Source: a virus. Taken from it: a DNA stretch of 42,249 nucleotides. The stretch lies in the IMG/VR virus record IMGVR_UViG_3300027996_000002, positions 1 to 42,249 of that record; one strand, written 5' to 3'. A model generated the notes under the pieces. The model was not told the DNA's origin. It saw nothing but the letters and a program-made list of their open reading frames with translations, and did not search any database. Below, piece by piece: positions 2,818-29,890 of the stretch. Positions within the stretch are counted from its first letter, which is position 1. The number at the start of each line of letters is the position of its first letter. A program made the position numbers and the translations under genes.

Positions 2818-5289
2818 ATGGCTATCATACCTAAAGGAAATTTTAGACGACGAGGAGCTAGATCGCTCCCTACCGCTAATCTCCCTTCCGATGGAGCAGC
2901 CGCCCCGTACCGCGAACTAGCTAAACTAGGGAACCAAGCCGCTAACATAGCTGGTGAGATGTTCCGTAAGTCTAGAGCCGAATCTGAAAGAAATGAAACC
3001 AATGACGCCATCACTAAAGCCTCAGAACTTATGGCTAAAGAGAAGCGGGACCTACAAGGATTCTTGAAGGACGATGGAACAGTTGGTGATACTAAGAAAC
3101 CTTACTCCCAAGTAGTGAAGGAAAGCCAGAAGCAGATATTAGAATCAGTTAGTGGAGGACTCAGTAATGATAGGGTTCGCCAAGTTTTTAGAGACAACAC
3201 CGCTGTATCTAGCCGCCAGAATGTTATACAATCGATCACCGACGAAAGAAAGCATATAAAAAGCAGAGCGGTTGTAAACGAGAGCAACCATAACCAACAA
3301 CAAAGTCACATGATCGCGGAAGCAGGACCTAATGCCCTCACTCTAGGTAATCAGATGTACCAGAAGAAGAAGCTAGATGGGATGGAGAGCTTCAAGAATG
3401 GTGGGAGGAGCGAAGCGGAGCTTGTAGATTTTAATAAAAACAACGGAACAACTAAAGCCTTAGCGGTAGGCGAGGTACTGGTAATATCTAAGGATGTTGA
3501 AGGGTTTAGTAAATTCTTTCCTGGGCTACTTAACACCGCAGGAGCTAAGCAGATACTAGACTTAGACCCTGAGAGTGCAGCGAAATTAGCAGAAGGAGTA
3601 GCAAGAGCGGAAGGAGCAAGCCCTAGCAAGGGACAGTATGAAGAACTAAGTAACCACCTGACTACTCCTCAGAAGTTCGGGTTCCTAAAAAGGATGCTTA
3701 AGAACATTAAATCAGGAAGTACTAGCCAGAGAGCGGCTCTATCTAATAGGTTCCAAGACCTTTTAGCTTCCATGAATAACAGAGACACTTACTCCCCTGA
3801 GCAAAATGATAAGCTCTCTTTAGAAGTGAAAAAGTATTACCAGGATAACCTAATAGCAGATGTTGCTCCTGAAGTAATTCAGAGTAGGATGTCTCGCCTA
3901 GTAGCTGCTGACTACGTTAATAATCAGAAACAATCCTTAGCTCTTGATAGCCCTAGAGAAGTACAGCAAGCTCTTAGAGGAATAGAAAAAGAGATAAAGG
4001 GGAAACTAAGAGAGATGTTCGCAGAGAATCCTGCATTATCTTCCTTGATAAATGAGGAAGCTTCAGCCCAATCAGCTATACAAATAGCTAAGAGTAAACT
4101 TATTACAGGGAAATTTAACCTGGAAGCAGAACGTAGGAAACACCCTGCGGATTACCAAGTTAAGTATAACGCCTCAGCTAAAGCTAAGTTTTCGACAGCC
4201 AGGACTCCTGAAGATTTCACAGAGGCTATCAGCTTCTCGAATCGATCGCAGGTAGCAAGCGGAACTCACCCTGACAAAGTAATACACTTACCTAGTGCGA
4301 TCTCCACTCCTATAGCGGAGAGTTTAGATAGAGGAATGGAGACGTTAGATGGTAAGGCTACTGTTACTAACGAGATAATTATGCTTAAGGCAAAATTCGG
4401 TACCAAACTTCCTGCTATTATGAATCAGCTTGTAGATTCAGGTAAGTTAAAGCATAAGGAGATAGCCGAAGTTCTGTGGATGTCCGACACTAATGCAATG
4501 AGAAGCGCCTTAAGTGATCTATCCGCTATGGACTCTAGGAAGACAGCTTATGATGCTGATAATAAGGACAGTAAAGGCAGAGCTATAGTAGATGTAGATA
4601 ACCTTTTGACTGTAGAAAAGATGAAGGAGTTCTTACCCTTTTCTGCTGCTAGGACTGATGGGATAAGCAAAAGAATGGAAAGTATGAGGAATATCGTAAA
4701 GGCTAAGTACTACTCTTTAATGGAAGGAAAAGCCCCTAATGATGGGCATAAGAAAGCTATGAGAGATGCTTACGACTTATCTATAGGGAAGATGTACACT
4801 AAGACAACTTTCGGTAAGAGTACTACCCAGATACCTAATACCTTTGACCTAAGCGAAGACCAAGTTAGAGCGGCTATGAAGACAGGAGTAAAGTTAACTC
4901 AAGAGCGAATGAGAATGGGACAGGTAGATTTTAGCAGGATGCCTGGGATTAGTCAGCAAGCTAAATATGTAGGATTAAGTGAAGCAGATAAGCAGGAAGC
5001 TTTTTGGGTAGACAATCGGGATAAAATAATGATGATACACCCACCCTCTGACGGGAGGGACTCAGTGCTTAGAGCGTATATCCCTACTCAAAGAGGGAAT
5101 GTAGCTGTAGCTTTTAAAGGTGAGCAGCCTTTTGTCGAGTTCCCTTTAGACCAAATCAAAGAGGACATATTTATTGAAGGACAGCGAATAGAGGATGTGA
5201 ACAGGGTCATTAACGGAGAAGGGGAAGATGTCGTGATTGATAAAATGTTCTTTCAAGTTTTTGGTAATGAGGCTAGTGATGGCAAATAA
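2818..5289 (+). CDS. Internal virion protein, gp15-like
   Basis: An 823-residue, mostly helical, Lys/Glu/Ala-rich protein with no signal peptide or obvious transmembrane segment. Size (T7 gp15 is about 750 residues), composition and position match the periplasmic tube component of the T7-type ejectosome. Residues 1-30 are Pro/Ala/Arg-rich. The ATG has an AGGAGA site five to six bases upstream. The 3' end overlaps the next gene by 11 nt, so the two are probably translationally coupled. No enzymatic motif is visible. Confidence 0.65.
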   Translation: MAIIPKGNFRRRGARSLPTANLPSDGAAAPYRELAKLGNQAANIAGEMFRKSRAESERNETNDAITKASELMAKEKRDLQGFLKDDGTVGDTKKPYSQVVKESQKQILESVSGGLSNDRVRQVFRDNTAVSSRQNVIQSITDERKHIKSRAVVNESNHNQQQSHMIAEAGPNALTLGNQMYQKKKLDGMESFKNGGRSEAELVDFNKNNGTTKALAVGEVLVISKDVEGFSKFFPGLLNTAGAKQILDLDPESAAKLAEGVARAEGASPSKGQYEELSNHLTTPQKFGFLKRMLKNIKSGSTSQRAALSNRFQDLLASMNNRDTYSPEQNDKLSLEVKKYYQDNLIADVAPEVIQSRMSRLVAADYVNNQKQSLALDSPREVQQALRGIEKEIKGKLREMFAENPALSSLINEEASAQSAIQIAKSKLITGKFNLEAERRKHPADYQVKYNASAKAKFSTARTPEDFTEAISFSNRSQVASGTHPDKVIHLPSAISTPIAESLDRGMETLDGKATVTNEIIMLKAKFGTKLPAIMNQLVDSGKLKHKEIAEVLWMSDTNAMRSALSDLSAMDSRKTAYDADNKDSKGRAIVDVDNLLTVEKMKEFLPFSAARTDGISKRMESMRNIVKAKYYSLMEGKAPNDGHKKAMRDAYDLSIGKMYTKTTFGKSTTQIPNTFDLSEDQVRAAMKTGVKLTQERMRMGQVDFSRMPGISQQAKYVGLSEADKQEAFWVDNRDKIMMIHPPSDGRDSVLRAYIPTQRGNVAVAFKGEQPFVEFPLDQIKEDIFIEGQRIEDVNRVINGEGEDVVIDKMFFQVFGNEASDGK

Positions 5290-6922
5290 CTTCTTTGAAT
5301 TAGCTACCCCCTCAGAGGAACAGGAATTATTTAATGCTGTCGATGCGTTTACACCCGCGTCTACTATGGACGGGATGATTGCAGCAGGTAAGACAGGGTA
5401 CAGAAACAACTTATTTTCTATGGCAGTAGATGCCGCACGATCAGATATTGAACCGATATTTAATCCTCAGCTTAATAGACCTGTATCTCCAGGTGAAGCT
5501 AAGGAAGTATATGGTCTCGACATTGAAGAACCAATCACTCAGATCGACGCCACTATTAGGTCGGAGAGAAACCAACTACTCCGACGGCAAGAAGCTATCC
5601 AACAGGAAGCAGGGTTAGGGGGGATTGGGAGATTCATAGGTAATATGGGTGGAGGACTTATTGATCCTCTAGCTTTACTAGGTGGACTTGCAGCAGGGAA
5701 AGCAGCCGTGTCTGTAGGCAATCAGATGGTAAACGCGGGGACTATGGTTAAAGTAGGACGGGTATTGAACGCCTCAGCTCATTCAGGTACTCCTCAAGGA
5801 ATTATAGCGAGAGAGATGGTAGAGAACGCTGTAGCTTCTACGATTATTGATATCCCTTTAGGAGAACACGTAGAGAATATCTATAACGAAGACATCACCG
5901 CAGCCGAACACTTATTTAATATAGGCGTGGGAACCTTGGCGGGGACTATGTTCCGTTACCTTGGGAGAGTGTTCGCGAAACCTGACTTAGACCTTAACCC
6001 TGAAGTAGTTAATAAAGTGGTAACAAAAGAACTACAGGAAGCAAACAGGACAGGCAGAGCGCCTGATCCTGAGAAAGCTATCGAAACGTGGAAAGCAGAA
6101 CAAGCTGAGTATAGGAGCAACCCTGATAACATACAAAATGCTAGAAGAATATTAGAAGAAGAAGGTACTAACGAAGCAAATTATTACGTGGCTCACCTTG
6201 AAGGGCAGCCTGAACAAGTAATTCGAGGTGTTAAACCTCTTACCGATGATGGTATTATTCTCACGAACAATCCTGCTCATGCTTTTTCTGATACTTTCCA
6301 TATTGTAGGAGGTGGTGTACATAAAGTAGACACCTCTAAGTTAAAATTATTTGAATTAGATGAAGCGAGCGTGACCGCTTTTGATGCCTCTACTAGGGGT
6401 AAAGTTACTGCCCAAGGGTTTCAAGGGTTGACTTATGTAAAAGACGGGGAGGTATTAGTAGAATTATTCGAGCCTCCTAGAGAGGGAAGCATCCCTATTA
6501 AAGACGACATGAAGCCCCGTCCTACAGAGTCTACTCATATAGACCCTAATGACGTAGAGCCAAAGGTTCAGTCAGAATATAAAAGTGATAACCCATTATG
6601 GACTGAAGAGAAATTTGGTGAGCAATATAAGACGGTACACCAGGATGCGGATACTACCACTCCAACTAAGGCTGCCGATGTAGCTAAGGAAGCTGAAGAG
6701 TTTGTTCAAGAAATTACTGAGGATATACAGAGAGCTGCTTCCGACATTGAGGAAGGTATTGAGTTAGTCCGTGAAGTGGAGAGTCAGACAGGTATTGATC
6801 CTTTTGATGACACTCCTAGATTTTTAAAAGAAGTTAGGAATATAGCAGAGAAATTTCAAGGAGACCCTGAGTTATTTGAAACTCTAGTTAAAGCTACTAT
6901 AGCTTGTATGAGGAGAAATTAA
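5279..6922 (+). CDS. Internal virion protein with possible ADP-ribosyltransferase-like domain
   Basis: A 547-residue protein. The ATG at 5279 is chosen because TGAGG lies upstream and the first clean residues begin there; an upstream in-frame extension to 5237 lies inside the preceding gene. Residues about 110-150 contain a Gly-rich hydrophobic stretch. Residues about 300-402 form a compact alpha/beta module with the pattern LTNNPAHAF, then GGGVHKVDTSKLKLFELD, then a Gly-Leu-Thr segment and VLVELFEP. This resembles the small ADP-ribosyltransferase-like domains of phage polyvalent/MuF-type proteins, a similarity judged by eye only. The C-terminus is acidic and coiled-coil-like. With the next gene it probably replaces a single gp16-like ejection protein. 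Stop and next start overlap as TAATG. Confidence 0.55.
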   Translation: MANNFFELATPSEEQELFNAVDAFTPASTMDGMIAAGKTGYRNNLFSMAVDAARSDIEPIFNPQLNRPVSPGEAKEVYGLDIEEPITQIDATIRSERNQLLRRQEAIQQEAGLGGIGRFIGNMGGGLIDPLALLGGLAAGKAAVSVGNQMVNAGTMVKVGRVLNASAHSGTPQGIIAREMVENAVASTIIDIPLGEHVENIYNEDITAAEHLFNIGVGTLAGTMFRYLGRVFAKPDLDLNPEVVNKVVTKELQEANRTGRAPDPEKAIETWKAEQAEYRSNPDNIQNARRILEEEGTNEANYYVAHLEGQPEQVIRGVKPLTDDGIILTNNPAHAFSDTFHIVGGGVHKVDTSKLKLFELDEASVTAFDASTRGKVTAQGFQGLTYVKDGEVLVELFEPPREGSIPIKDDMKPRPTESTHIDPNDVEPKVQSEYKSDNPLWTEEKFGEQYKTVHQDADTTTPTKAADVAKEAEEFVQEITEDIQRAASDIEEGIELVREVESQTGIDPFDDTPRFLKEVRNIAEKFQGDPELFETLVKATIACMRRN

Positions 6923-12470: not shown

Positions 12471-12664
12471 TGAAAGTAAATTTTAACACTGTAGTAACAA
12501 CAATGCTCATGATGGGTATAGCCGCAGCTTCCTCTTCTATAGTATTGTCGTACAAGACAGAAGTTAAAGTTAAGAACAACGAGAAGATGATAGATCGTAT
12601 GTACCAAGAACAAAGGGTCATGCAATCTGACGTTAAAGAGATACTTAGGAGATTGCCTCAATGA
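12470..12664 (+). CDS. Small membrane-anchored coiled-coil protein
   Basis: A 64-residue protein starting at ATG 12470 (an in-frame ATG at 12440 lies inside the upstream gene). Residues about 7-27 form one hydrophobic helix, followed by a Lys/Glu/Arg-rich helical tail of about 35 residues. This single-pass topology resembles small phage lysis-associated membrane proteins (holin- or i-spanin-like), but no specific family can be named. GGAAAGGACGAG lies just upstream. The 3' end overlaps the fibre gene as ATGA. Confidence 0.5.
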   Translation: MKVNFNTVVTTMLMMGIAAASSSIVLSYKTEVKVKNNEKMIDRMYQEQRVMQSDVKEILRRLPQ

Positions 12665-14511
12665 CAATAGCCACCCCTGATCCTATATTATTTACTACCG
12701 TATTTGGGTACATCTATGACAATGGTGTAGCCGTTCAAGGTGTTAAGGTTCGGTTTAAATCGCTTGAGTATAGTGAGAATGATAACTCTAACTCTATCGA
12801 TACAACTGTTACTTCTGATGTCGATGGTAGATACCAAGCTGTGCTTTCTCATACTGTTAACACAGGTACCCTCGTAGAAGTGACTGGTAAATACCAGAAC
12901 GCAGCGGGGGATATCGTTCCTATTCAAGAAACTATAGTAGTGGGTGCCACTACTCCGATCTCAGTACAGGCTGCCCGAGCCATCTCCCTCCCACCTGCTA
13001 TTATAACTGGTGGACCACAAGGACCAGTCGGCGCGACAGGAGCACAAGGCCCTCAAGGTCTTCCTGGGTCTGCCGAAAATGTCATCAATTTACAAAGATC
13101 TGTCGATGGAGCCGCTGTTAGCTTAGATGGATCCACTGCAGGCCAAACTCCAGATTTATACCTAGTTGACCCTGATACAGGGGATATGACTATTACTATC
13201 CCAGATGCTGGTTTTTCCGCAGGGGTTAAGTGGCGTTTTTATAAAAAAGATACCGATGCCAATAAAGTCACAATCCAGACTGTTTCTGGAGATTTAATTG
13301 GTGGCGAGGCCACGCAGGAGATTCTGCAGAAGACTTCAGGTATCACTATCCTCGATGACACTACTGAGTATAGGAAGCTTCAAGACTCAAGGTCTCAACT
13401 CCCTCACGAAGATCATGTACACTCTGTCGATGGAGCAACTTTAAATATTACAAAGCCAACACTAATGGCCAACCCGGACACAGGGGTTATTACTGCGACC
13501 TTACCGAACCCGGCAGATAATCCAGACAAAATATTTATCCTAAAGAACGAAGGAACTTCGGGCAACGATTTAATAATTAATTCAATGGGGGGCGAACTTA
13601 TTAATGGTTCAGCTACCCAAACTATTGAAGACGGTAAATCCATAATGGTTTTCTCGCTTGCTGACGATGACGTTTACCAAGTTATTCAGGATTCTCGTAG
13701 ACCTTTTGGCTCTCCAGTAGATGTAGGGACGGCCAATGCTGACGGAGTCTCGACTGACATAGCAAGAGCAGACCATGTTCATGCTCACGGGACTCAGACC
13801 GATGGTACCCTTCACGCTGATGTTATAGCAGGTGGTGCTGACGGATTTATGACCGGCGCTGATAAGACTAAGCTTGACGGTATCGAAGCAGGAGCGACAG
13901 CCGACCAGTCGGACGCTGAAATAAAAACAGCCTATGAAAACAACGCTGACACTAATGAATTTTCAGACGCCGAACAGACTAAATTAGCCGGTATTGAAGC
14001 TGGGGCTACTGCTGACCAGTCGGACGCTGAAATAAAAACAGCCTATGAAAACAACGCTGACACTAATGAATTTTCAGACGCCGAACAGACTAAATTAGCA
14101 GGTATCTCCGCAGGTGCCGAAGTCAATGAAGCTCACGAATACCTAGCTATAGCAGGTACTTCAGGAATCGGAGGCAATACCACTGAACTAGGTAGCTGGG
14201 GAAACAACGCCGCAAAAGGAGGCTTCCCTGCATTATTCGACGGGGAGATTATAGCGATAGGGATACGATTAAACGCTGCTATAACCGCAGGTACTTGTGA
14301 GGCTCAGTCTGTGATTAACGGAGTAGCTCAGAATGGAGCTGGAGAAACTGCTGACCTAGCTAGTGGGGGACCGGCTCAGGATACTATTCAGATTATCGCA
14401 GCCCCTATAGCCTTTAATGCTGGAGACATTATTAACCTTCAGACAGTCACAGCAGGGGCGGCTCCTACAGGTGCTGACGCCACTATGACAATTATATGGA
14501 GACGAACATAA
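12661..14511 (+). CDS. Tail fibre with Ig-like, collagen-like and repeated modules
   Basis: A 616-residue modular fibre. Residues about 5-110 look like a carboxypeptidase-regulatory/Ig-like beta sandwich. Residues about 118-138 are Gly-X-Y collagen-like repeats (GPQ GPV GAT GAQ GPQ GLP). Residues about 145-245 and 258-345 are two related beta modules, each ending in a Gln-Asp-Ser-Arg. Next come an Asp-His-Val-His-Ala-His segment and the common fibre motif TKLDGIEAGAT, with a 37-residue unit present twice. The last 135 residues form a Gly/Ala/Asn-rich putative receptor-binding head. Start ATG overlaps the upstream stop as ATGA. Adsorption to the host surface is the likely role. Confidence 0.8.
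   Translation: MTIATPDPILFTTVFGYIYDNGVAVQGVKVRFKSLEYSENDNSNSIDTTVTSDVDGRYQAVLSHTVNTGTLVEVTGKYQNAAGDIVPIQETIVVGATTPISVQAARAISLPPAIITGGPQGPVGATGAQGPQGLPGSAENVINLQRSVDGAAVSLDGSTAGQTPDLYLVDPDTGDMTITIPDAGFSAGVKWRFYKKDTDANKVTIQTVSGDLIGGEATQEILQKTSGITILDDTTEYRKLQDSRSQLPHEDHVHSVDGATLNITKPTLMANPDTGVITATLPNPADNPDKIFILKNEGTSGNDLIINSMGGELINGSATQTIEDGKSIMVFSLADDDVYQVIQDSRRPFGSPVDVGTANADGVSTDIARADHVHAHGTQTDGTLHADVIAGGADGFMTGADKTKLDGIEAGATADQSDAEIKTAYENNADTNEFSDAEQTKLAGIEAGATADQSDAEIKTAYENNADTNEFSDAEQTKLAGISAGAEVNEAHEYLAIAGTSGIGGNTTELGSWGNNAAKGGFPALFDGEIIAIGIRLNAAITAGTCEAQSVINGVAQNGAGETADLASGGPAQDTIQIIAAPIAFNAGDIINLQTVTAGAAPTGADATMTIIWRRT
13903..14099 (+). repeat. Tandem duplication (111-bp period) in tail fibre gene
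   Basis: Two copies in phase with the codons: 13903-13988 and 14014-14099 are identical over 86 bases, and the remaining 25 bases of the period have diverged. Each copy encodes a 37-residue unit with Ala-Glu-Ile-Lys-Thr-Ala-Tyr-Glu-Asn-Asn. The perfect identity at synonymous positions shows a recent duplication or gene conversion. Confidence 0.95.
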
Positions 14512-20700: not shown

Positions 20701-20921
20701 GCGTTCTCCTTATTACTTTCATCATGTCTCCTAAGTAGTATAACCCCCCGTCTAATTGCTTGGATTATGTTTCTTACTTTCTGAGGGTAGTCTAAATAAA
20801 AAGGAACAAACATTTCATTAGTAGGATTGTAGACTCGTCCCCATAACTGATACCTCTTATCAGGTCTGATGTTTAGGCATACCTCTAAGTTCTTATAAAG
20901 GAATTTCCGATAGTACCTCAT
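20697..20921 (-). CDS. Small basic hypothetical protein downstream of helicase
   Basis: A 74-residue, Arg/Lys/Tyr-rich protein whose ATG overlaps the helicase stop as ATGA, with GGAGAACGC upstream as for the next gene. Contains PDKRYQLWGRVYNPTNEMFVPF. No family recognised; DNA or RNA binding is possible from its charge. Confidence 0.55.
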   Translation of the reverse strand: MRYYRKFLYKNLEVCLNIRPDKRYQLWGRVYNPTNEMFVPFYLDYPQKVRNIIQAIRRGVILLRRHDESNKENA

Positions 20922-22399
20922 GCGTTCTCCTTCACGAAGTCAATCACCCTCTTCGATACATCCTGCTTCATGGTAAGGGCGTCAAGTACTGCCTCGTCGA
21001 TTGTATCTCTAGCGCAGAGGTCGATCTTTGTGATTCGATCATGAATCTGAGAGCCTCCTCTATGGTTTCGAGCCTCTGACTGAAGCTCATCGCCCAGACT
21101 AAAGTTCCTACTAAAGACAATGCTATAGTTAGCCGCAACCAAGTTAACTCCGATGCCCCCCGCACGCCTGTTAGCAATAATAACCCTGCAAGTAGGGTCG
21201 GTGTTAAAAGAATCCATAGCATCCTGCTTCTCCTTTAAGCTCATATCACCCGTGATATAAACGTGTTCAAGTTCTAGCGACTCACAAAGCTTACCAAGCT
21301 GTACATAGTTATTGCGAAAGCAACACCAAACAATACACTTATGCTTCCCTTCGACCACAATTTCTTCAAGCAACTCCTTAGTGACATCCAGTCTGGGGTT
21401 CTTTTCGATTGCGATCTCTTCTCCACTTTCAGTAGATACATATCCAGAACATATCTGTTGGAGTCGGAGGGCTTTTGTGACGGCAAGCTGCGCGACAACT
21501 GCTCCGCTAAGTTCTTGTCTCTTCTGCTTCTCTTGGACGAATGTAACGAAGTCACGCTTCATCTCCTCATAGTACTTACGCTGCTCTTTCCCTAGCTCAA
21601 CGTGCCTGGTTACTTTGACCAGTGGTGGTAGGTCTTTGAGTACATCCTGCTTCAGTACCCTCGTAGCTTTACGATAGATACGTTCGTGAAGTGCATCGTA
21701 CTTATCGGCTCGGGGTACAAGGGATTTGAAATGCCCTGGTTTACTGGACCACGCTGCATTTTCATCTTCCATGTAGGTGTTCTCGAACACATAATAATTA
21801 GAACCTAGGGTCTCCCCTTTGTCCATGAACCTATATGGTGCCCACACATCTTTGATTGAGTTCAGGATTAGCGTACCGCTCATCGGGAATCGGTGCTCAA
21901 CAGACTGGTAGTCCCCTAACTTAATGAGAGCCTTAGTTCTCTTGGCTCGGGGGTTCTTTATCTGATGTATCTCGTCGCCTACTATAACCTCTGGTCCCCA
22001 CTCTAAGATAAATTTAAACAAGGCATCGTTGGATAGTGTTTCGTAGTTGGTGATTACGATTTTGTTCTTGTCCATACAGCCTGTGATTTTATCTAAGCAA
22101 GCATCAGTGAATATCTTAGCCTTACCTTTACTGGATCGGTGGTACATAACCACGATGTCCTCTTCATCTATGTGAGAGTGAAGCTTGAACTCATTCTTCC
22201 AGTTAAACAGTGTGACTAATGGCGATACGATTAAGGTCCGGCGAACTCTACCTGCGGTAGCATACTTATCTCGAAGGATATTAATTATCCCTCCAGTCTT
22301 ACCCGTTCCCATCTCCCACAGCAGAGCTAGGTCCGGCATCTGCCGACTCATCTCCAGTGCTTTCAATTGATGCGGATAGGGGGGTATCTTGAACTCCAT
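20918..22399 (-). CDS. SNF2-type DEAD/DEAH box helicase
   Basis: A 493-residue superfamily 2 ATPase. Motif I is WEMGTGKT (residues 28-35), motif Ia is in TLIVSPLVTLFNWKNEF, motif II is GDEIHQIKN (about 139-147), motif III is MSGT, motif V lies in IIANRRAGGIGVNLV and motif VI is QSEARNHRGG (about 441-450). The order and the GIGVNL and Q-x-x-x-R-x-x-R signatures are SNF2-like. Phage relatives probably unwind or remodel DNA during replication or recombination. AAGGGAGTAAAG precedes ATG 22399. The upstream 102-residue gene overlaps its first 100 nt in another frame. Confidence 0.9.
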   Translation of the reverse strand: MEFKIPPYPHQLKALEMSRQMPDLALLWEMGTGKTGGIINILRDKYATAGRVRRTLIVSPLVTLFNWKNEFKLHSHIDEEDIVVMYHRSSKGKAKIFTDACLDKITGCMDKNKIVITNYETLSNDALFKFILEWGPEVIVGDEIHQIKNPRAKRTKALIKLGDYQSVEHRFPMSGTLILNSIKDVWAPYRFMDKGETLGSNYYVFENTYMEDENAAWSSKPGHFKSLVPRADKYDALHERIYRKATRVLKQDVLKDLPPLVKVTRHVELGKEQRKYYEEMKRDFVTFVQEKQKRQELSGAVVAQLAVTKALRLQQICSGYVSTESGEEIAIEKNPRLDVTKELLEEIVVEGKHKCIVWCCFRNNYVQLGKLCESLELEHVYITGDMSLKEKQDAMDSFNTDPTCRVIIANRRAGGIGVNLVAANYSIVFSRNFSLGDELQSEARNHRGGSQIHDRITKIDLCARDTIDEAVLDALTMKQDVSKRVIDFVKENA

Positions 22400-22607
22400 C
22401 TTTACTCCCTTTTAATTCTGTGGCTAGCACAGTTGGCTCTGATACGCTGTCGCTAAATAGTACCTGTAATCCTAGTACCTTTACGTTTGGTTTGGGGATC
22501 ATCAGTGCCATGCACTCTCTCCCCGCTACTTGGTGCTCGGTCATTTGTTCATGCACCTTTAATAATTCAGTGCCGATTAAACGCTCGACCCATTGTACGT
22601 CATTCAT
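22299..22607 (-). CDS. Hypothetical protein overlapping helicase start
   Basis: A 102-residue protein. ATG 22607 overlaps the primase-helicase stop as TGATG, with AGGAGGAG upstream. The first 68 residues look like a folded domain (helix, then PNVKVLGLQVLF). The last 33 are Ser/Asp/Gly-rich, apparently disordered, and share DNA with the helicase N-terminus in another frame. No family recognised. Good start signals and coupling make it a likely real gene. Confidence 0.6.
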   Translation of the reverse strand: MNDVQWVERLIGTELLKVHEQMTEHQVAGRECMALMIPKPNVKVLGLQVLFSDSVSEPTVLATELKGSKDGVQDTPLSASIESTGDESADAGPSSAVGDGNG

Positions 22608-24958
22608 CAAAACTCCTCCTCTCCCTGGGCTAGTTTGTACCCAGATAATACGCGCTTAAGTACGCCGTCTGTTCTCACTCGTTTAAATGCTTTGTTATCA
22701 TTTACAATCGACGCTACCTTTCGACCGAACCAAACTTGATTCTTAGGCTTGATGCCTTGTTGCTCGGCTGTCATTTTATACGATAGGTATAAGTCATTGA
22801 TCGTGATCCCCGTCTCGGGGGCACATGGTACGATTGCATCTTCCCACCATGAAAGGATGTCATCGTTTGCTCTACGGTAATCTTCTAATTGTTTGGTGAC
22901 TTCCTTAGATTCAGTGAAGCCCTTCTGCCGTTGGAATTTTAGCAGTGCTGGAATGATTAAGTTGTATATGCCTGACGCCTCAGCGTACAGTTTGTCACGG
23001 ATCAGGGGATCGTACCCCTCTATATCTAGACCGAACTTCTGTTTGAAGGGAACCAGTAACAGGCGACGAAACATACCGTGTGACAAATCCTTGGTAGACG
23101 GTAGCTCATTACAAGCCATAATGATTTTCGCATTATTTTTCATGGAGTAAGCATCACAGTATAGCTTCCTTGCTTGAACCTCGCCCCCTGTTACTAGTGC
23201 CTTAAAGATAGTGTTGTCCATCATTGCGTTCGTTGGTGTTTCTTCTGAGATGTTGAACAACTTACCATCTAATTGATATCTGTTTTCTAGCTTGTTAATT
23301 TCATGTCCCATACTAAGCGTACAATAGTTTCCCTTACCTGCGAGGTACTTAAGAGTGTCCATAAAAACGGATTTTCCGTTTGAGCCGTCCCCGACAAGGA
23401 TAAGACATTTCTGTCCGATAGAGGGGTCAATCCCAGATAGGGAGTAGCCCATATATTCAAGGAGGAGTTGTTGTAATCCTCGGTCGCTACTACAAACCCT
23501 GTCAAGGAACCTCTCGAACGACGGACATTTTGCATGAGGGGAATAACTAAAGGGTAGCACGTATCGAAATCCTTGTTCAAGATCATGATCTCGAAGTTCC
23601 ATGGACTGTATGTCGAGTACCCCGTTGGCGAAATTGATATACCCTTGAGGGTTAAGCCACTCTGGGTCTCTAACATGATTTCTTTGTAGCTTACCCCTAA
23701 ATTCAGAGCACATCTGATTATTGGGTTTAGGATCGAAATTTTGCTCTGCAAACTGATCGATTTTTCTGAACGCATAGTCCTCCCAGCAAGAGCCACGCCA
23801 TACATAGGTCAGGTTCCCGTCAGTCATTGAGACGAATGGATGTTCCTTGTAAAAGTGGCGCATCATATCGTCATAGTTAGGCTTGCCCTTCTTAGGCAGA
23901 CCGTCTTGTCCTAGTGTTATGTTGTAGAATCCAGTGTCTCTGGTCTTGATGTAGTCCTCTGTTTGGAGGACGATGGGGGATTTACATTTACCGTAAGACG
24001 GACACGCGGTGCATCCATCCCAAAGCGTTGATATATTGTCACAAGTTCTTGGACCTGCTGTCTTAATAGCTTGTGCAAACTTTCTATCCGTTTCTGATTC
24101 GGCATATCCTGAGTGTCCTCTACTGAATACATGAGATAGTTCTCTCCCGTTATCCAACCTTCCGATAATCGACAGCAAAGCGTACCATTGAGGCTCGGAG
24201 AGTTCTTCTGAGTTGTCTTTGCACCACTTGATGTACTCGCATCCATTTAATACTCCTTTAGTATCGGGCGGCGGGAGACGCTCAAGCATTTCATCCGACA
24301 CCTGTTCATTATATTTAACTAAGGGTATGCCTGACTTCTGAATGATATCGAAGTCAACGGGAATTATGTTTGCATTTAATACGGTGGCTTGCTTCTCTCC
24401 TTTCTTTGGCTTGATATTTTTCGTGCCTGGAAGCCGCAGTAAACGGGCAGCCGAAAAAACCGACGGGTCTGAGGAGCCGGACAGCCCTGAATTGTATAAG
24501 GCTTGGTCGAGCTTGCCCAGAATTGCTTTGTAGTATACTCGGTGTTCATCAAAGAACTGTTCATCGTGGATCGTAGAATTGGTAGCAACAAGAAATTGGA
24601 GACCGTTGCCACTACTAACAATACCCACAGAATCCGACTCGACACCCAACACTGCACATACTGGAAGTATGTAAGCGTCAAGATGCTTAAGATCGTTATC
24701 TTCGATATCGTCGATATCAAAAGGTATGATACGTTGAGTTTCAAGTACTCTCCCTCGCCTCTCAAGACAAGAGGCTGCTGTGTAATACAGGTTATACTTT
24801 TCTTCTTCTGGTATTTTATGCAGTATGGTATCTAGGTTTTTAAAGAGTTCTGGAACGGACTCGGCTCTCCAGTTATTCTCGAAGAAAGCTTCTTTCTTCT
24901 TGATTTTATTCTCTTTTTTGTCAAAATATTCACGGAGTCCTAGGATTTGAACACTCAC
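22607..24958 (-). CDS. Primase-helicase (AEP-type primase plus D5-like SF3 helicase)
   Basis: A 783-residue fused replication initiator. The N-terminal half resembles an archaeo-eukaryotic primase: FDIDDIED (Asp81-x-Asp83), SGNGLQFLV and RLLRLPGTKN. A Cys cluster (CDN, then GCTACPSYGKC) forms a likely zinc or Fe-S site in the middle. The C-terminal half is a D5/SF3 helicase with Walker A GDGSNGKS (about 519-526), a Walker B region with NISEETP, and the sensor-like IIMACNELP. It should synthesise primers and unwind DNA for the family A polymerase. Start GTG 24958 with GAGGAGGTG upstream; a sigma70-like promoter lies at 24981-25009. Confidence 0.9.
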   Translation of the reverse strand: MSVQILGLREYFDKKENKIKKKEAFFENNWRAESVPELFKNLDTILHKIPEEEKYNLYYTAASCLERRGRVLETQRIIPFDIDDIEDNDLKHLDAYILPVCAVLGVESDSVGIVSSGNGLQFLVATNSTIHDEQFFDEHRVYYKAILGKLDQALYNSGLSGSSDPSVFSAARLLRLPGTKNIKPKKGEKQATVLNANIIPVDFDIIQKSGIPLVKYNEQVSDEMLERLPPPDTKGVLNGCEYIKWCKDNSEELSEPQWYALLSIIGRLDNGRELSHVFSRGHSGYAESETDRKFAQAIKTAGPRTCDNISTLWDGCTACPSYGKCKSPIVLQTEDYIKTRDTGFYNITLGQDGLPKKGKPNYDDMMRHFYKEHPFVSMTDGNLTYVWRGSCWEDYAFRKIDQFAEQNFDPKPNNQMCSEFRGKLQRNHVRDPEWLNPQGYINFANGVLDIQSMELRDHDLEQGFRYVLPFSYSPHAKCPSFERFLDRVCSSDRGLQQLLLEYMGYSLSGIDPSIGQKCLILVGDGSNGKSVFMDTLKYLAGKGNYCTLSMGHEINKLENRYQLDGKLFNISEETPTNAMMDNTIFKALVTGGEVQARKLYCDAYSMKNNAKIIMACNELPSTKDLSHGMFRRLLLVPFKQKFGLDIEGYDPLIRDKLYAEASGIYNLIIPALLKFQRQKGFTESKEVTKQLEDYRRANDDILSWWEDAIVPCAPETGITINDLYLSYKMTAEQQGIKPKNQVWFGRKVASIVNDNKAFKRVRTDGVLKRVLSGYKLAQGEEEF

Positions 24959-25108: not shown

Positions 25109-25792
25109 TCACTTGCTTAACCAACACTCAAACCCCGCAGCGGGGGACACAGCACCGTTCAAGTTCCATTGAAGAACTCTAGAGTACGTCTGCCCTACCG
25201 CGATATTCTTTACTGTCTTGCAGACGATACCCGCTAAAATATTAGCGCAGTAAATCGTTGACTTGGCAGTACACTTCTCAAACTTTGCATCGTCATCTGA
25301 GTACCAAGAGGCGTTGTAACCTTCAACGTCCTTTGGTTCGTTCGGATTAAAAGTGTAAAGAAGCATTGTCTCTGCACCCATCCTAGGGTCAATGAAGATT
25401 TCTGGATGCTTACAGCTTTCAAAGATTTCTTTCCTCACTGCCATTGAATCAACGGCGGCGATGATTATTTCATCCTTAAGCTCGAAGCTTTTGTCCCACT
25501 TCATCTCCATCGGAGTGATGTCGATGTTCGTAAACATCTTAATCATACGGTGTAGAGCCATTACTTTTGGTTGTCCTATCTCTGCGACTGGATAGAATTG
25601 ACAGTTCATATTCTCAACGTCAATCTTATCGTGATCCCAGACAGTGACATTACTGAAACCCATCTTAACAAGGGAGAGAGCGACCCATGATCCGACCGCC
25701 CCTGCTCCTACAATAGTAATACGCTTACCTAATGCTTCCATTGGGATTAAATCCATCTGCCGGATAAGCGTGTCTTCTAGTTTAATAGTCAT
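25109..25792 (-). CDS. E1-like ThiF/MoeB-family adenylating enzyme
   Basis: A 227-residue minimal E1/ThiF protein. The Rossmann nucleotide loop is GAGAVGS (residues 29-35), followed by VWDHDKID (Asp53/Asp55), ENMNCQFY (Asn61, Gln65), IGQPKV (Lys76) and AAVDS (Asp115). Candidate thioester Cys are Cys174 or Cys182 in KFEKCTAKSTIYC. The CxxC zinc pairs of MoeB are absent. The Arg of the usual N-x-x-R-Q motif is replaced (Asn-Met-Asn-Cys-Gln). It would adenylate the C-terminal Gly of the Ubl at 29654. AGGAGGAACT precedes ATG 25792; only 8 nt separate it from the JAMM gene, so the two are co-expressed. Confidence 0.88.
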   Translation of the reverse strand: MTIKLEDTLIRQMDLIPMEALGKRITIVGAGAVGSWVALSLVKMGFSNVTVWDHDKIDVENMNCQFYPVAEIGQPKVMALHRMIKMFTNIDITPMEMKWDKSFELKDEIIIAAVDSMAVRKEIFESCKHPEIFIDPRMGAETMLLYTFNPNEPKDVEGYNASWYSDDDAKFEKCTAKSTIYCANILAGIVCKTVKNIAVGQTYSRVLQWNLNGAVSPAAGFECWLSK

Positions 25793-25800
25793 AGTTCCTC

Positions 25801-27078
25801 CTATACCGTAACTTGGTATTTGTTTTTCATGTACTTACTAGGGTTGTAGAACAAAGCTTCAGTCATCGTCTGCCTGTCCATAAAGGATTTATCTAAGTCC
25901 CAATCGTCAACTGGAGGTCTTCCCTTAACTTTTAGATAAGTGTCAAACTCTTCCTCTCTAGCCCCTAAGTAGTCGAGCATGTTATCTTCAGTATACTGAG
26001 GATACTTAGCCATAAACTGCCTGTAGTTAATCCAGTTGCCATTTTTACCAAAGCTTCTATCCCAACGAAGCATCCCTATAGTAGGGTGGATGACTCCTGT
26101 AGCTCTAGTGGCGGAAGATACGGCTAAAACGTCATAGAAAACATTGTAATCAAGATTAGTACAAACGCTAAGTCCAATACTGACTGGGGCAGCCTTCTTA
26201 GACTGTACCACAGCCGTACCTTTCGTCCCATTGGTCTTCGAGTCGGTTGAGGTACCCTTCCCAACTTTCGTTGTTGCAGTCCCAGTGGGGATCGTATCCT
26301 GCTCCAGAGCTTTCTTTGCTTTCCGTCTCCCCCTCTTTGAAGAGGGTCGGGGCTTTCCCAAGATTGAGTGGGTTCCTTCAAGGACATACCTGGGTACTCC
26401 AATAATAGGAGTTGCGTCCCAGTAGGTTGTTGCTTGGAGGAGTTGGTCGTATTTAGGGTAGTATTGGTTTTTCTCGAACGCAGTCCACTCTCTTGTATTA
26501 TTTCCTTTATGGACTTTACTAAGTGACCTCCGTGTCTTGGCTTTCAACTCATACTCAGAGTCCCAAATCTTAACCTTAGCTTCATCTAGTACAGGCTGAT
26601 CAATCTCCATCTCTAGATCATTCAAAAACACAGGAGGAAGAAAACCATTATCACCTTGATAAAAGGCAGACTTAGTCTCGTTCTTCTTGTTAAACACTGT
26701 AGCCAAACAGAAGCCCTGGTCACCGTACTGTTTAATAGTATCGGTATCAGTCCCACTCCAGAAGACATTCATGTTAACATGTGAGTGCCACCAAAAGTTT
26801 AAGTGCCCTGGCTCGTCCCTAGATTCAAACTGTAGCTTTGAAACTGCCGTAGCGTCTAAGTCCGTAGTGGCTGCTGTATTTACTTGTTCTAGAAGATAAG
26901 CTTCCGTCACATGAAATGCTCCGTCTTTGTAGATACACTTACCTAATCCTGAAATTTCTAGAGGGCACTTTCTTACCCAATACATGATCTTTTCGTAAGC
27001 GTCCCTCGCGAAAATCACCTTCGGCTTCCCTTCTTGAAGCTTCGGCTTGTTTAAATTTTGTGAATAGTATGTCGTCAT
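25801..27078 (-). CDS. JAMM/JAB metalloprotease (deubiquitinase-like) with C-terminal extension
   Basis: A 425-residue protein. Residues about 18-150 form a JAB/MPN domain: EISGLG with Glu41, then His98-Ser-His100, seven residues, Ser108, two residues, Asp111, the exact zinc-protease motif. It should cleave after Gly-Gly, maturing the Ubl precursor and/or removing it from targets. Residues about 225-295 are a low-complexity Lys/Thr/Gly linker, followed by an unrecognised C-terminal domain (about 300-425) that may bind E1, E2 or substrate. AAAAGGTAAATA precedes ATG 27078. Located between the E2-like and E1-like genes. Confidence 0.9.
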   Translation of the reverse strand: MTTYYSQNLNKPKLQEGKPKVIFARDAYEKIMYWVRKCPLEISGLGKCIYKDGAFHVTEAYLLEQVNTAATTDLDATAVSKLQFESRDEPGHLNFWWHSHVNMNVFWSGTDTDTIKQYGDQGFCLATVFNKKNETKSAFYQGDNGFLPPVFLNDLEMEIDQPVLDEAKVKIWDSEYELKAKTRRSLSKVHKGNNTREWTAFEKNQYYPKYDQLLQATTYWDATPIIGVPRYVLEGTHSILGKPRPSSKRGRRKAKKALEQDTIPTGTATTKVGKGTSTDSKTNGTKGTAVVQSKKAAPVSIGLSVCTNLDYNVFYDVLAVSSATRATGVIHPTIGMLRWDRSFGKNGNWINYRQFMAKYPQYTEDNMLDYLGAREEEFDTYLKVKGRPPVDDWDLDKSFMDRQTMTEALFYNPSKYMKNKYQVTV

Positions 27079-27125: not shown

Positions 27126-28898
27126 CTAAAAAGGGTAATTAGGGACGGGGGGTGCCACTGGGGAGATATAGTGTGAACAATCTCTACAATACCTCTCGTT
27201 AGCCGGCATTTCGGTACCATTTCTATTAGAGGGTTCAATGTTTGTTGAATCACATTGATCACATTGTACAGCGGGCTGACCGTCAGAGCTTTCGCTAAGT
27301 GACCTCCGATCTTTAATCTTATATCGCTTAGTGAAAACATCCTTAATCTTAGGATTAGTAGGTTGTAGGTCTCTAATACAAAAAGTCCTAAGAGAGGTCT
27401 CACCTTCAAGTGCTACTTTGTAGTGCCAATCTTGGCTCCCTCTAGTAGTACTATTTGTCCACTTCCCCGAACTAACACTGTAGTAGCTAAATAACCCTTG
27501 AATCCTCACAACGATACCTTTCTTACCTAGCCTACTGGAATTTCCTGAATGGCTCCCATCTACAACAATAACTTCATCCCCAATGAATAGAGACTTGTGT
27601 TTATGGAATATGGTACGGGCTGCCTCAAACTGAGCTAAAATTGGACCTGATATAGGTTCAAGTTCATCTCTCGTCCTACCTGTACTGTTCTCTCTGTAGT
27701 CCCCTACGCCAAACTTATCTACTCCAGCTTTCTTGCCAATTAAGACAGTGGAGTGACAGATGTTCTCTTTATCACTGATTTGAGAAACAGAGTGCCCTTT
27801 CCTTTTTAAGCGGTAAACTAACGCTACGTAGTCATTAAACTCAGCCCCGTTACCCATATCAAAGTTCCCTCTAATCAACACCAACTGCCCCACTGCTAAT
27901 GGAGATTCAGTGTCCCATTCAGGCTTTCTCTCAACGTCCACAGGCAAATCACCTGGGATAAATGGGTAATCATTTGGCGTAAAGTCCCCCTGGCGACGTA
28001 TCCCTGACTTAAAGGTATTACGAACAAGTGTATCAAAGGTACTTAATCTGATGTATGGATTTTCAGGGCAGTAAGTATGCAGCAGCGAGTGGAGTAAACT
28101 AAATGTTTCAGAATACTTCCTGTCATATAGACCTTGTTGCGCCCTCCTCTTAGCTGACCCCCAGCAAATTTTACCTTCAGTACCAATGTGTGTATGGTAA
28201 AAGGCGTTACACTGTAAACAGTTAAGCCCCTTAAACACTCTGAGACTGTTAGAAGCTAATCCTAACCTAGCAATCAAGATACCAAAGTTCACACTCAAAT
28301 CTAGACCGGCAGCCTCATTCTTCTGAGTTTGAATTACGTTACGGGTGGTAGCAAAGTAAATATCAGAACCATCGGAACTAATGTGAACAATCTGCCAGTG
28401 ACCTGAGTTAATGATTGATACAATCTCTTTGTAAAGCGATTCATCAGACTCACCGTTAGCTAATGACAGCTTAAGAGCAGCTAATAAATCAGTATGCTTT
28501 ACTAATTGCGTACGGTAATTTTCAGCATCTCGATCATGACTGGCAATTCGATCAGTAAGAGCTTTAGCATTTTGTGTTTCGGTTACAATCTGCCCCTCTA
28601 AGTTTCCTCCTGTGAAGGAACAAATCTTAGCTTTATTAGGCTCGATTTTCTGTAAACTAAGCTTAACGTAATCCGCTTCGGGCAGCGAGTCTCGCAGTCC
28701 AAAGACTATTCTATTCAACTCTGATAGGTCAGTAATCATTGTCCCATCAGTAATAAAACTCTCCATCTTAACTTCATCGTATCGTGGATCGATCGAATTA
28801 GTTAATCGTGCCAAGTGTGCAAAAGCATCTTGGAGCGGGGGAGCAAGGGTACTTGAATCTTTCTTCAAGTCTCCAATTGTTTGTGTCGCAAGTGACAT
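27126..28898 (-). CDS. E2-like ubiquitin-conjugating protein with KOW-like and zinc-ribbon regions
   Basis: A 590-residue protein. Residues about 165-290 match the E2 core order: beta strands, then FYHTHIGTEGKICWG. His235 and candidate catalytic Cys245 have the ten-residue spacing of the eukaryotic HPN-to-Cys motif, followed by a helix (SLLHSLLHTYCPENPYIRLS) like E2 LLxxPNPxxPL. The G-K-I-C-x-G pattern also recalls the prokaryotic E2 of PRTRC protein B. Residues about 436-466 look KOW/SH3-like. The C-terminus has a zinc ribbon (Cys546/549, Cys571/574). Residues 1-150 are helical. It would accept activated Ubl from E1; the extra domains may choose substrates. AAGGAG precedes ATG 28898. Confidence 0.7.
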   Translation of the reverse strand: MSLATQTIGDLKKDSSTLAPPLQDAFAHLARLTNSIDPRYDEVKMESFITDGTMITDLSELNRIVFGLRDSLPEADYVKLSLQKIEPNKAKICSFTGGNLEGQIVTETQNAKALTDRIASHDRDAENYRTQLVKHTDLLAALKLSLANGESDESLYKEIVSIINSGHWQIVHISSDGSDIYFATTRNVIQTQKNEAAGLDLSVNFGILIARLGLASNSLRVFKGLNCLQCNAFYHTHIGTEGKICWGSAKRRAQQGLYDRKYSETFSLLHSLLHTYCPENPYIRLSTFDTLVRNTFKSGIRRQGDFTPNDYPFIPGDLPVDVERKPEWDTESPLAVGQLVLIRGNFDMGNGAEFNDYVALVYRLKRKGHSVSQISDKENICHSTVLIGKKAGVDKFGVGDYRENSTGRTRDELEPISGPILAQFEAARTIFHKHKSLFIGDEVIVVDGSHSGNSSRLGKKGIVVRIQGLFSYYSVSSGKWTNSTTRGSQDWHYKVALEGETSLRTFCIRDLQPTNPKIKDVFTKRYKIKDRRSLSESSDGQPAVQCDQCDSTNIEPSNRNGTEMPANERYCRDCSHYISPVAPPVPNYPF

Positions 28899-28917: not shown

Positions 28918-29118
28918 CTAGCTATCTTCCGATAACCTCTCTTTTACTTTTTCAACAGTAATCTCTTTTAAGTCGGAACCAGACTCAGAGTGTTCTTCAA
29001 CCATCTGATCTAGAGTAGAAATAAAATCATCTGAGTTGCCTGGAGCAAATATAGGGCGATCTTCTAGATATTCATCTATTACACTTTCCCTGCTCCAGTG
29101 ACTTTGAAATATTCCCAT
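28918..29118 (-). CDS. Small acidic protein in the ubiquitin-like cassette
   Basis: A 66-residue, strongly acidic protein with a predicted helical C-terminal half. No family recognised. It is flanked on both sides by the same AACCAAGGAGAATTTATG ribosome-binding spacer, which also precedes the E2-like gene and the KOW-like gene, so it is co-translated at similar levels. It could be a regulator, adaptor or substrate of the Ubl pathway; that is inference from position only. Confidence 0.6.
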   Translation of the reverse strand: MGIFQSHWSRESVIDEYLEDRPIFAPGNSDDFISTLDQMVEEHSESGSDLKEITVEKVKERLSEDS

Positions 29119-29131
29119 AAATTCTCCTTGG

Positions 29132-29479
29132 TTAATGGCTTCCTAGTTTTTCCATATCAAATTCAGGTGCTCTTACTAAACTTGAGTCCGTTGAATTGTC
29201 ATATCCTAGCCAGCAAAGTTCTGTACTTTTCTTGTTGCGGTAAGCGAAAGCTTTAATAGTCTCAACTACTTCAATAATCTCTTTCTCGTAGACGTTATAC
29301 GCAGCAGCTCCGGCGGTGTTACCATTTTGATTCACTGTTTTAACGTAGTATGGGTAGGAAGTCCCTGTCTTAGCTCCATTGTACTCAGTTAATTGGGTTT
29401 TAATGATAACGCCTGTTTTAGGTGTAAAGATACCCCCAGGTTTAAATTTTACTAGGTCCCCTAAGTTGTATTTAAGCAT
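29132..29479 (-). CDS. Small KOW/SH3-like protein in the ubiquitin-like cassette
   Basis: A 115-residue protein from ATG 29479, which has AAGGAGAATTT upstream. A longer frame to 29557 exists but its first 26 codons run through the tRNA-like element and are not likely translated. The N-terminus (LGDLVKFKPGG, then KTGVIIK) has the strand-turn pattern of KOW/SH3-like barrels, similar in style to residues 436-466 of the E2-like protein. The rest is alpha/beta without a known motif. Function unknown. Confidence 0.65.
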   Translation of the reverse strand: MLKYNLGDLVKFKPGGIFTPKTGVIIKTQLTEYNGAKTGTSYPYYVKTVNQNGNTAGAAAYNVYEKEIIEVVETIKAFAYRNKKSTELCWLGYDNSTDSSLVRAPEFDMEKLGSH

Positions 29480-29494
29480 AAATTCTCCTTGGTT
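29477..29494 (-). repeat. Repeated ribosome-binding leader (one of three identical copies)
   Basis: AACCAAGGAGAATTTATG occurs identically at 29477-29494, 29116-29133 and 28896-28913, each ending in the start codon of a cassette gene. Related CCAGGAGAA leaders precede genes at 30586, 31271 and 33255. Identity over 18 nt exceeds what ribosome binding needs and may reflect module shuffling. Confidence 0.85.
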
Positions 29495-29502
29495 AATAAA
29501 AA

Positions 29503-29607
29503 TGGTGCTCCTCACAGGACTTGAACCCGCATCTTCCCTACCTAGACCACTAATCAAGTTATTGAACCCTGGGCCTTTGGGGGCTTTACCAGTTAAGCTA
29601 TTGGAGC
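29503..29607 (-). tRNA. Degenerate tRNA-like element, anticodon unclear
   Basis: The 105-nt minus-strand sequence starts GCTCC and ends GGAGC-A-CCA with the CCA encoded. The D-arm (TA, GCTT, loop with GG, AAGC) and T-arm (GCGGG, TTCAAGT, CCTGT) are good. The acceptor has five pairs and two mismatches. The anticodon arm is irregular; CAGGG-TTCAATA-ACTTG would give CAA (Leu) with one mismatch and an odd base 37, after an extra CCCCCAAAGGCC-like insert. It could be a pseudo-tRNA, a class II tRNA with insertion, or a tRNA-like RNA-processing signal. Confidence 0.45.
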
Positions 29608-29653: not shown

Positions 29654-29890
29654 TTACCGACGTTTAAGAAAAGTCCTCTTAACTTTCTTCATTCCGCCTT
29701 TAACAGCTTCAGCAAATGAGATGAAGTCAAAGTCACGAAGACTACGTTTCATCTCAGCAGGTTGACCGTTAATGGTCGCTGTGTAATTACCACTCAAACC
29801 TAGTTTAGCCTTAGCTTCTTCGACGTTTTTTACTCCGTCTAAAACTTTAGGTTGTCCACCAGTTACTTGTGCAGTTACATTCTTAGCCAT
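29654..29890 (-). CDS. Ubiquitin-like (ThiS/MoaD-type beta-grasp) precursor with internal Gly-Gly
   Basis: A 78-residue protein. The order strand (NVTAQVTGG), strand (QPKVLDGV), helix (NVEEAKAKLGL), strand (NYTATINGQPAEM) and final strand (FDFISFAEAVKGG) is that of a beta-grasp fold. The end strongly resembles ThiS/MoaD tails. Gly65-Gly66 is followed by a 12-residue basic tail, MKKVKRTFLKRR, so exposure of the Gly-Gly needs proteolysis; the JAMM protease of the same operon is the natural candidate. TAGGAGGTAAATC precedes ATG 29890. It is the first of the E2, JAMM and E1-linked genes. Detection is by pattern and context, and a profile search would decide. Confidence 0.7.
   Translation of the reverse strand: MAKNVTAQVTGGQPKVLDGVKNVEEAKAKLGLSGNYTATINGQPAEMKRSLRDFDFISFAEAVKGGMKKVKRTFLKRR

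Follow-up and report, generated by a model that had tools for sequence, protein, structure and literature searches.

A probable phage-encoded ubiquitin-like conjugation operon with an E2-like protein of 590 residues

Human cells attach ubiquitin to proteins, and in bacteria the conjugation of ubiquitin-like proteins (Ubls) is known mainly as a defence against phage. An ORF at 27126-28898 of a 42,249-base virus record, analysed whole and here called the window, raises the question of whether a phage may encode an E2 of its own and which partners such an enzyme would have. HTVC010P-like Pelagibacter phages have terminases about 45% identical to that of the window, which also encodes polymerase A, an SNF2 helicase and a D5-like primase. 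Only the minus strand is open over the ORF, which has 590 codons, an ATG start and the Shine-Dalgarno sequence AAGGAG before it; it belongs to a run of genes on that strand whose Shine-Dalgarno sequences are good. Given the evidence below, it very probably encodes the E2 of a phage-borne Ubl conjugation cascade, in an operon ordered Ubl, E2, JAB/JAMM protease and E1 (Table 1). An earlier sequence-only reading recognised the E2 core but overlooked the neighbouring Ubl gene, and its word "prokaryotic" is better replaced by "phage and mobile element".

Table 1. Features of the operon and its surroundings in the window.
Feature	Position	Strand	Basis or remark
E2-like conjugating enzyme, 590 aa	27126..28898	-	conservation, profile, predicted structure
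UBC/E2-fold core, residues 150-305	27984..28451	-	pLDDT ~97 for 153-297; 50/50 listed structural matches are E2s
E2 active-site stretch, His235-Cys245	28164..28196	-	conservation in homologous cores
E2 helical N-terminal extension, residues 1-147	28458..28898	-	predicted model
E2 four-Cys zinc-ribbon-like element, Cys546-Cys574	27177..27263	-	Pfam, residue check
Ubl, 78-aa ubiquitin-fold protein ending VKGG-MKKVKRTFLKRR	29654..29890	-	model, Foldseek, VIA, profile
Ubl Gly65-Gly66	29693..29698	-	family alignment
Ubl 12-aa tail after Gly-Gly	29657..29692	-	tails also in homologues
JAB/JAMM protease, 425 aa	25801..27078	-	Prok-JAB E 1.3e-3, below cut-off
JAMM motif H98-S-H100-x7-S108-x2-D111 (with Glu41)	26746..26787	-	motif in sequence and family
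E1-like ThiF adenylating enzyme, 227 aa, single domain	25109..25792	-	PF00899 E 3.7e-23
C174-T-A-K, candidate E1 catalytic cysteine	25262..25273	-	conservation
115-aa ORF (from its SD-preceded ATG) between Ubl and E2	29132..29479	-	operon membership uncertain
66-aa ORF between Ubl and E2	28918..29118	-	operon membership uncertain
D5-like primase/helicase, neighbour outside the system	22607..24958	-	PF19263, PF08706
SNF2 helicase, neighbour outside the system	20918..22399	-	PF00176

The residues read at the putative active site are His235, Thr236, His237, Gly242-Lys243-Ile244-Cys245, Trp246 and Gly247. The ten-residue spacing of the E2 HPN-Cys motif, with G-K-I-C, had been noted here; the positions of His235 and Cys245 do give a spacing of ten and Gly-Lys-Ile-Cys is confirmed, the motif itself reading H-T-H-x7-C and not HPN. 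Cys245, Gly247 and Gly206 are invariant in the 33 homologous cores (33/33), while position 235 is His in 30 of them, position 236 Pro in 31 and position 237 His in 26; in a few members Asn or Thr replaces the upstream His. The family consensus is YxHPHVxxxGxxCWG, and the window motif is a variant of the family HPH-x7-C in which Thr236 is unusual. Most members carry HPH, and one, L021, carries HPN. A chance motif at His235-Cys245 is ruled out by this conservation of Cys, His and Pro.

A profile of the 33 cores was compared with the whole PDB, and 11 of the 12 rows with E<10 were E2s, each individually weak (E 0.14-1.5). The best alignment placed the family HPHVSSSGSVCWG on HPNVYADGSICLDI, setting HPH..C over HPN..C. 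The alignment had been cut to the E2 core because coiled-coil matches to the helical N-terminus dominated the search with the full-alignment profile. Among 30 members the UQ_con profile matched 5, its best match (E 0.005) falling short of the cut-off, and Prok-E2_D matched 3; as a direct query the 590-aa protein found no relatives in 50,697 phage records or in IMG/VR.

The AlphaFold2 model, built with 30 sequences, has a pLDDT of about 97 over residues 153-297, and its core is laid out as a helix, six strands, the active-site loop and three helices. The helix expected after the Cys is predicted at residues 262-274. When the model was compared with solved structures by VIA-align, all 50 entries listed were ubiquitin-conjugating enzymes (Z 7.3-8.0, where a VIA Z of 7-8 can be non-specific), the matches covering about 120 residues within positions 144-311. 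That only E2s were listed as matches of the predicted core is hard to explain unless the core has a UBC fold. Foldseek gave no significant match for the whole 590-aa model, and in BFVD the sole significant match was an unnamed protein, A0A516LW79 (E 8e-4, 474 aa). The predicted fold, the conservation of the active site and the company of E1, JAB and Ubl genes thus support an E2-like core in this ORF, as the sequence-only reading had held; neither of the outcomes it had named as refuting, a fold unrelated to UBC or a Cys245 that varies among homologues, occurred.

The regions outside the core fared unevenly. The helical N-terminus that had been anticipated is predicted in the model, but the supposed KOW/SH3-like segments were not recovered, as residues 373-542 have a pLDDT below 50 and no Pfam match. 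The C-terminal Cys546, Cys549, Cys571 and Cys574 are present as described and weakly match the Pfam PaaD zinc ribbon, with E 0.0014 and 18.6 bits where the cut-off is 27, and CxxC pairs are seen again in part of the homologues. Homologues are 215-812 aa long with extensions that vary greatly, the 215-aa protein being without most of them. It is possible that E2 activity and E3-like target selection are combined in the one 590-aa chain. Elsewhere in the window, a leader, AACCAAGGAGAATTTATG, is nearly identical in the E2 and the 66-aa ORF, and the inner start of a 141-aa ORF in the same interval (28918-29557) probably has it too; a family search with the 115-aa ORF gave no convincing match. In a probable tail fibre (12661-14511) one stretch, GPQGPVGATGAQGPQGLPG, resembles collagen, and two repeats (ADQSDAEIKTAYENNADTNEFSDAEQTKLAG) are almost identical.

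The Ubl has both a beta-grasp fold in its predicted model and a C-terminal Gly-Gly in the family alignment, with a basic tail after VKGG. Its AlphaFold2 model (pLDDT 84) matched Mth1743, TtuB and ubiquitin in Foldseek (prob 1.00) and MoaD/TtuB in VIA-align (Z 8.1), and the Ubl profile matched SAMP2 (5lda, E 1.2e-6) in an alignment running through the Gly-Gly. Ubl ends across relatives are GG, GA or AG plus 0-20 or so residues, and the alignment is too variable to scan sequence collections. For the JAB profile, the closest solved relative is the Caldiarchaeum Rpn11-like protein 6fju (E 1.6e-6), presumably the Rpn11 homologue that trims pro-ubiquitin in that archaeon. The JAMM residues are kept in every JAB of the family, and the JAB query had no matches among named phages or genome contigs. 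The E1 profile is best matched by the NEDD8 E1 UBA3 (E 4.8e-12). C-[TS]-x-[KR] is kept in almost every full-length E1 of the family, and from what is known of UBA1 and SAE2 we take its Cys to be catalytic.

Relatives were fetched with E1 and JAB queries only, from IMG/VR and prokaryote genome contigs. As E2 and Ubl were unused in retrieval, their occurrence beside JAB and E1 is a finding independent of the queries. A JAB was found on 64 distinct contigs, and on 47 of these Ubl, E2, JAB and E1 follow in that order; many of those lacking the full order are interrupted by contig ends. HMMs for E2 and Ubl, built from a seed set picked by eye, found both proteins next to JAB and E1 in loci outside that set, to which many of the 47 contigs do not belong. 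Because the seeds were picked by eye, seed loci give no independent counts, whereas L041 and L043-L086 do. The operon occurs in many unrelated phages and bacterial genome fragments, the family being present in viral contigs and in deltaproteobacterial/Myxococcales (Myxococcota) MAG contigs, as well as on L048, an 8-kb contig that belongs to a Lokiarchaeota MAG but is quite possibly viral.

The loci vary in content. The Myxococcales contigs L053-L074 include multiple operon copies on separate contigs of one MAG. ORFs resembling primases and PD-(D/E)XK proteins lie nearby, as does, in L066 alone, a tyrosine integrase-like ORF recognised by reading its sequence; this multi-copy operon is possibly a mobile element. 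L036 encodes a 137-aa protein (6233-6646) in which a Ubl repeat ending VKGG stands twice in tandem, like a polyubiquitin precursor, and the E1 of this locus (4267-4944) lies upstream of it. Second E2-like, JAB-like and Ubl-like genes were seen at L024:9600-10352, L042:9022-9798 and L010:11132-11407, in loci already having one, and at L027:7693-8606 the JAB directly follows the Ubl with no E2 detected between them. A chosen set of 116 neighbour proteins contained six SNF2 helicases, six PD-(D/E)XK nucleases, four SprT-like proteins and three primases, and ERF is also among the neighbours. This replication and recombination neighbourhood may reflect nothing beyond the phage early region. The SprT-like proteins are metalloproteases, and the product of L024:5896-6381 resembles one by eye; eukaryotic SPRTN is ubiquitin-regulated and functions in DNA-protein crosslink repair.

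A more distant version is probably present in Crassvirales. Of the crAss001 genes gp79-gp76 (L006:2244-6654), the annotation calls the first two hypothetical, the third a metalloprotease and the last thiamine biosynthesis ThiF; together they are a probable divergent Ubl-E2-JAB-E1 set. The E1 and JAB of Crassvirales and of Flavobacterium phage FpV4 are homologous to those of the window operon, and in the crAss/Flavobacterium gene preceding JAB an HSH and a Cys are invariant. crAss001 gp78 aligned with the E2 profile with its HxH..C in register (E 3.5e-5, prob 72), although, unlike in the window family, the loop from His to Cys is longer and variable in the crAss proteins. The gene before the E2-like gene appears Ubl-like by eye; it gave no significant alignment to the Ubl family, and no Ubl was among its matches in the PDB. 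These crAss relatives are placed between a primase and a UDG/exonuclease.

The analysis shows four protein families with their motifs, a conserved order of their genes, and predicted models with E2 and ubiquitin folds; from these we infer a cascade, including each chemical step, the order of the steps and the target. The JAB protease would trim the 12-residue Ubl tail and bare the Gly-Gly, and the E1 would use ATP to adenylate the Ubl glycine and then hold the Ubl as a thioester on Cys174. From there the Ubl would move to Cys245 of the E2, which would attach it to a target amine, and the JAB may be able to take the tag off again. The operon has no evident E3, and the helical arm and the zinc ribbon of the E2 are therefore proposed to help select the target. 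The operon is most likely a working Ubl conjugation cascade active in phage DNA replication or recombination, and the target itself most likely belongs to these processes, as a protein of the phage or of the host. In UBE2W an HPH, the second His replacing the oxyanion Asn, goes with the tagging of N-terminal amines (PMC4630614, PMC9527308), and therefore the phage E2s may tag lysines or N-termini. We put forward only tentatively the wider idea that widespread phages and mobile elements, with a divergent cousin in Crassvirales, regulate DNA replication and recombination proteins by a Ubl signalling of their own, using a pro-Ubl, an Rpn11-like protease and a UBE2W-like E2, in the way that eukaryotes put ubiquitin and SUMO on PCNA and on repair factors.

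Other roles may be envisaged for the same genes. Bacterial Bil systems reportedly conjugate Ubl to virion proteins of phages, and the cascade could likewise be a weapon against competitors, putting Ubl on the virion proteins of other phages for superinfection exclusion. The gene order and component types are those of BilABCD (PMC11354881), and several copies lie in MAG contigs, one beside the tyrosine integrase-like ORF. However, there is one Ubl domain in place of two, no CEHH follows the Cys and the E1 has a single domain; PADLOC, which matched only the E1 meaningfully (via CBASS E1-E2 models), had no match for the window E2, JAB or Ubl; and the usual neighbours are replication genes. We consider such a weapon unlikely.

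It is improbable that the Ubl carries sulfur for a cofactor or for tRNA thiolation, with the E2-like protein an accessory lacking transfer activity. The Ubl profile does match SAMP2, MoaD and TtuB, the E1 matches ThiF/MoeB, and JAB proteins process sulfur carriers too (PMC1779556), but the E2 fold has an invariant Cys, the E1 is closer to UBA3, UBA5 and SAE2 than to MoeB, and neither a sulfurtransferase nor a cofactor gene was noticed in the vicinity of the operon. The His that stands in place of the HPN Asn in most members, together with the HSH and longer loop to Cys of the crAss versions, could also suggest a UBC/RWD-like scaffold whose H-x-H...C cluster binds metal and forms no thioester. 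Given that the HPx-Cys spacing is exact in most members, that L021 has HPN and that E1, JAB and Ubl genes are closely paired with the E2, this is very improbable.

If the operon works as a conjugation cascade, a complete phage-borne Ubl-E2-JAB-E1 set would reverse the picture of Ubl conjugation as antiphage defence, and the question becomes what phages tag. The Rpn11-like JAB, UBA3-like E1 and UBE2W-like E2 site resemble eukaryotic and archaeal parts, which bears on the origin of the ubiquitin system, and the divergent version in the cultured phage crAss001 offers a laboratory handle. Our literature search found no description of a phage Ubl-E2-JAB-E1 operon; the main specialist surveys were outside its scope and an earlier mention is possible.

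Among known systems, eukaryotic and archaeal ones share individual traits with the window operon. Like UBE2W, the window E2 family has HPH for HPN and a His-to-Cys distance of ten residues or so, but the UBE2W family is eukaryotic, small and clearly UQ_con, and the window family is none of these. The Caldiarchaeum subterraneum ubiquitin operon likewise has a tail after GG (9 aa there, 12 in the window Ubl), the closest JAMM protease sequence match and separate E1 and E2. The nine-residue tail of its pro-ubiquitin is removed by an Rpn11 homologue before E1 activation (PMC5654768). That operon has a small RING E3, whereas none was noticed in the window operon, and a Pfam scan of window proteins, part of the small ORFs included, matched no RING family.

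Among the operons of Iyer et al. 2006, type 6d, in our view the PRTRC cassette, resembles the window operon in its standalone Ubl with C-terminal Gly, E2, JAB and E1 (PMC1779556), but the upstream His is missing from its E2s and a downstream His is present, and PRTRC/6d membership is rejected given the upstream His in 30 of 33 E2s of the window family. CBASS Cap2/Cap3 and operon types 6a/6b share the E1, E2 and JAB activities; their E2 is fused to the E1 and their operons have no described Ubl gene, whereas the window has separate genes and a Ubl. With no fused E1-E2 in the window, membership in CBASS type II (an E1-E2 fusion beside a CD-NTase) is rejected. None of the types 6a-6e unites a separate Ubl, a separate upstream-His E2, a JAB and an E1 (PMC1779556). 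BilABCD shares the order Ubl, E2, JAB and E1, with the JAB beside a tailed Ubl (PMC11354881). However, BilA has two Ubl domains and the window and nearly all relatives one (the L036 tandem being the exception); BilB has CEHH, with His after the Cys, whereas the window E2 has HxH before the Cys and reads WGSAKRRAQQG after Cys245, a CEHH-type motif not being conserved in its family; and BilD has an inactive and an active adenylation domain, in contrast to the one ThiF domain of the window E1. Bil membership was accordingly rejected, the gene order being shared and the two Ubl domains, CEHH and double E1 absent. Based on the comparisons with Bil and types 6a-6e, the window operon is classed as a different prokaryotic variant of Ubl conjugation.
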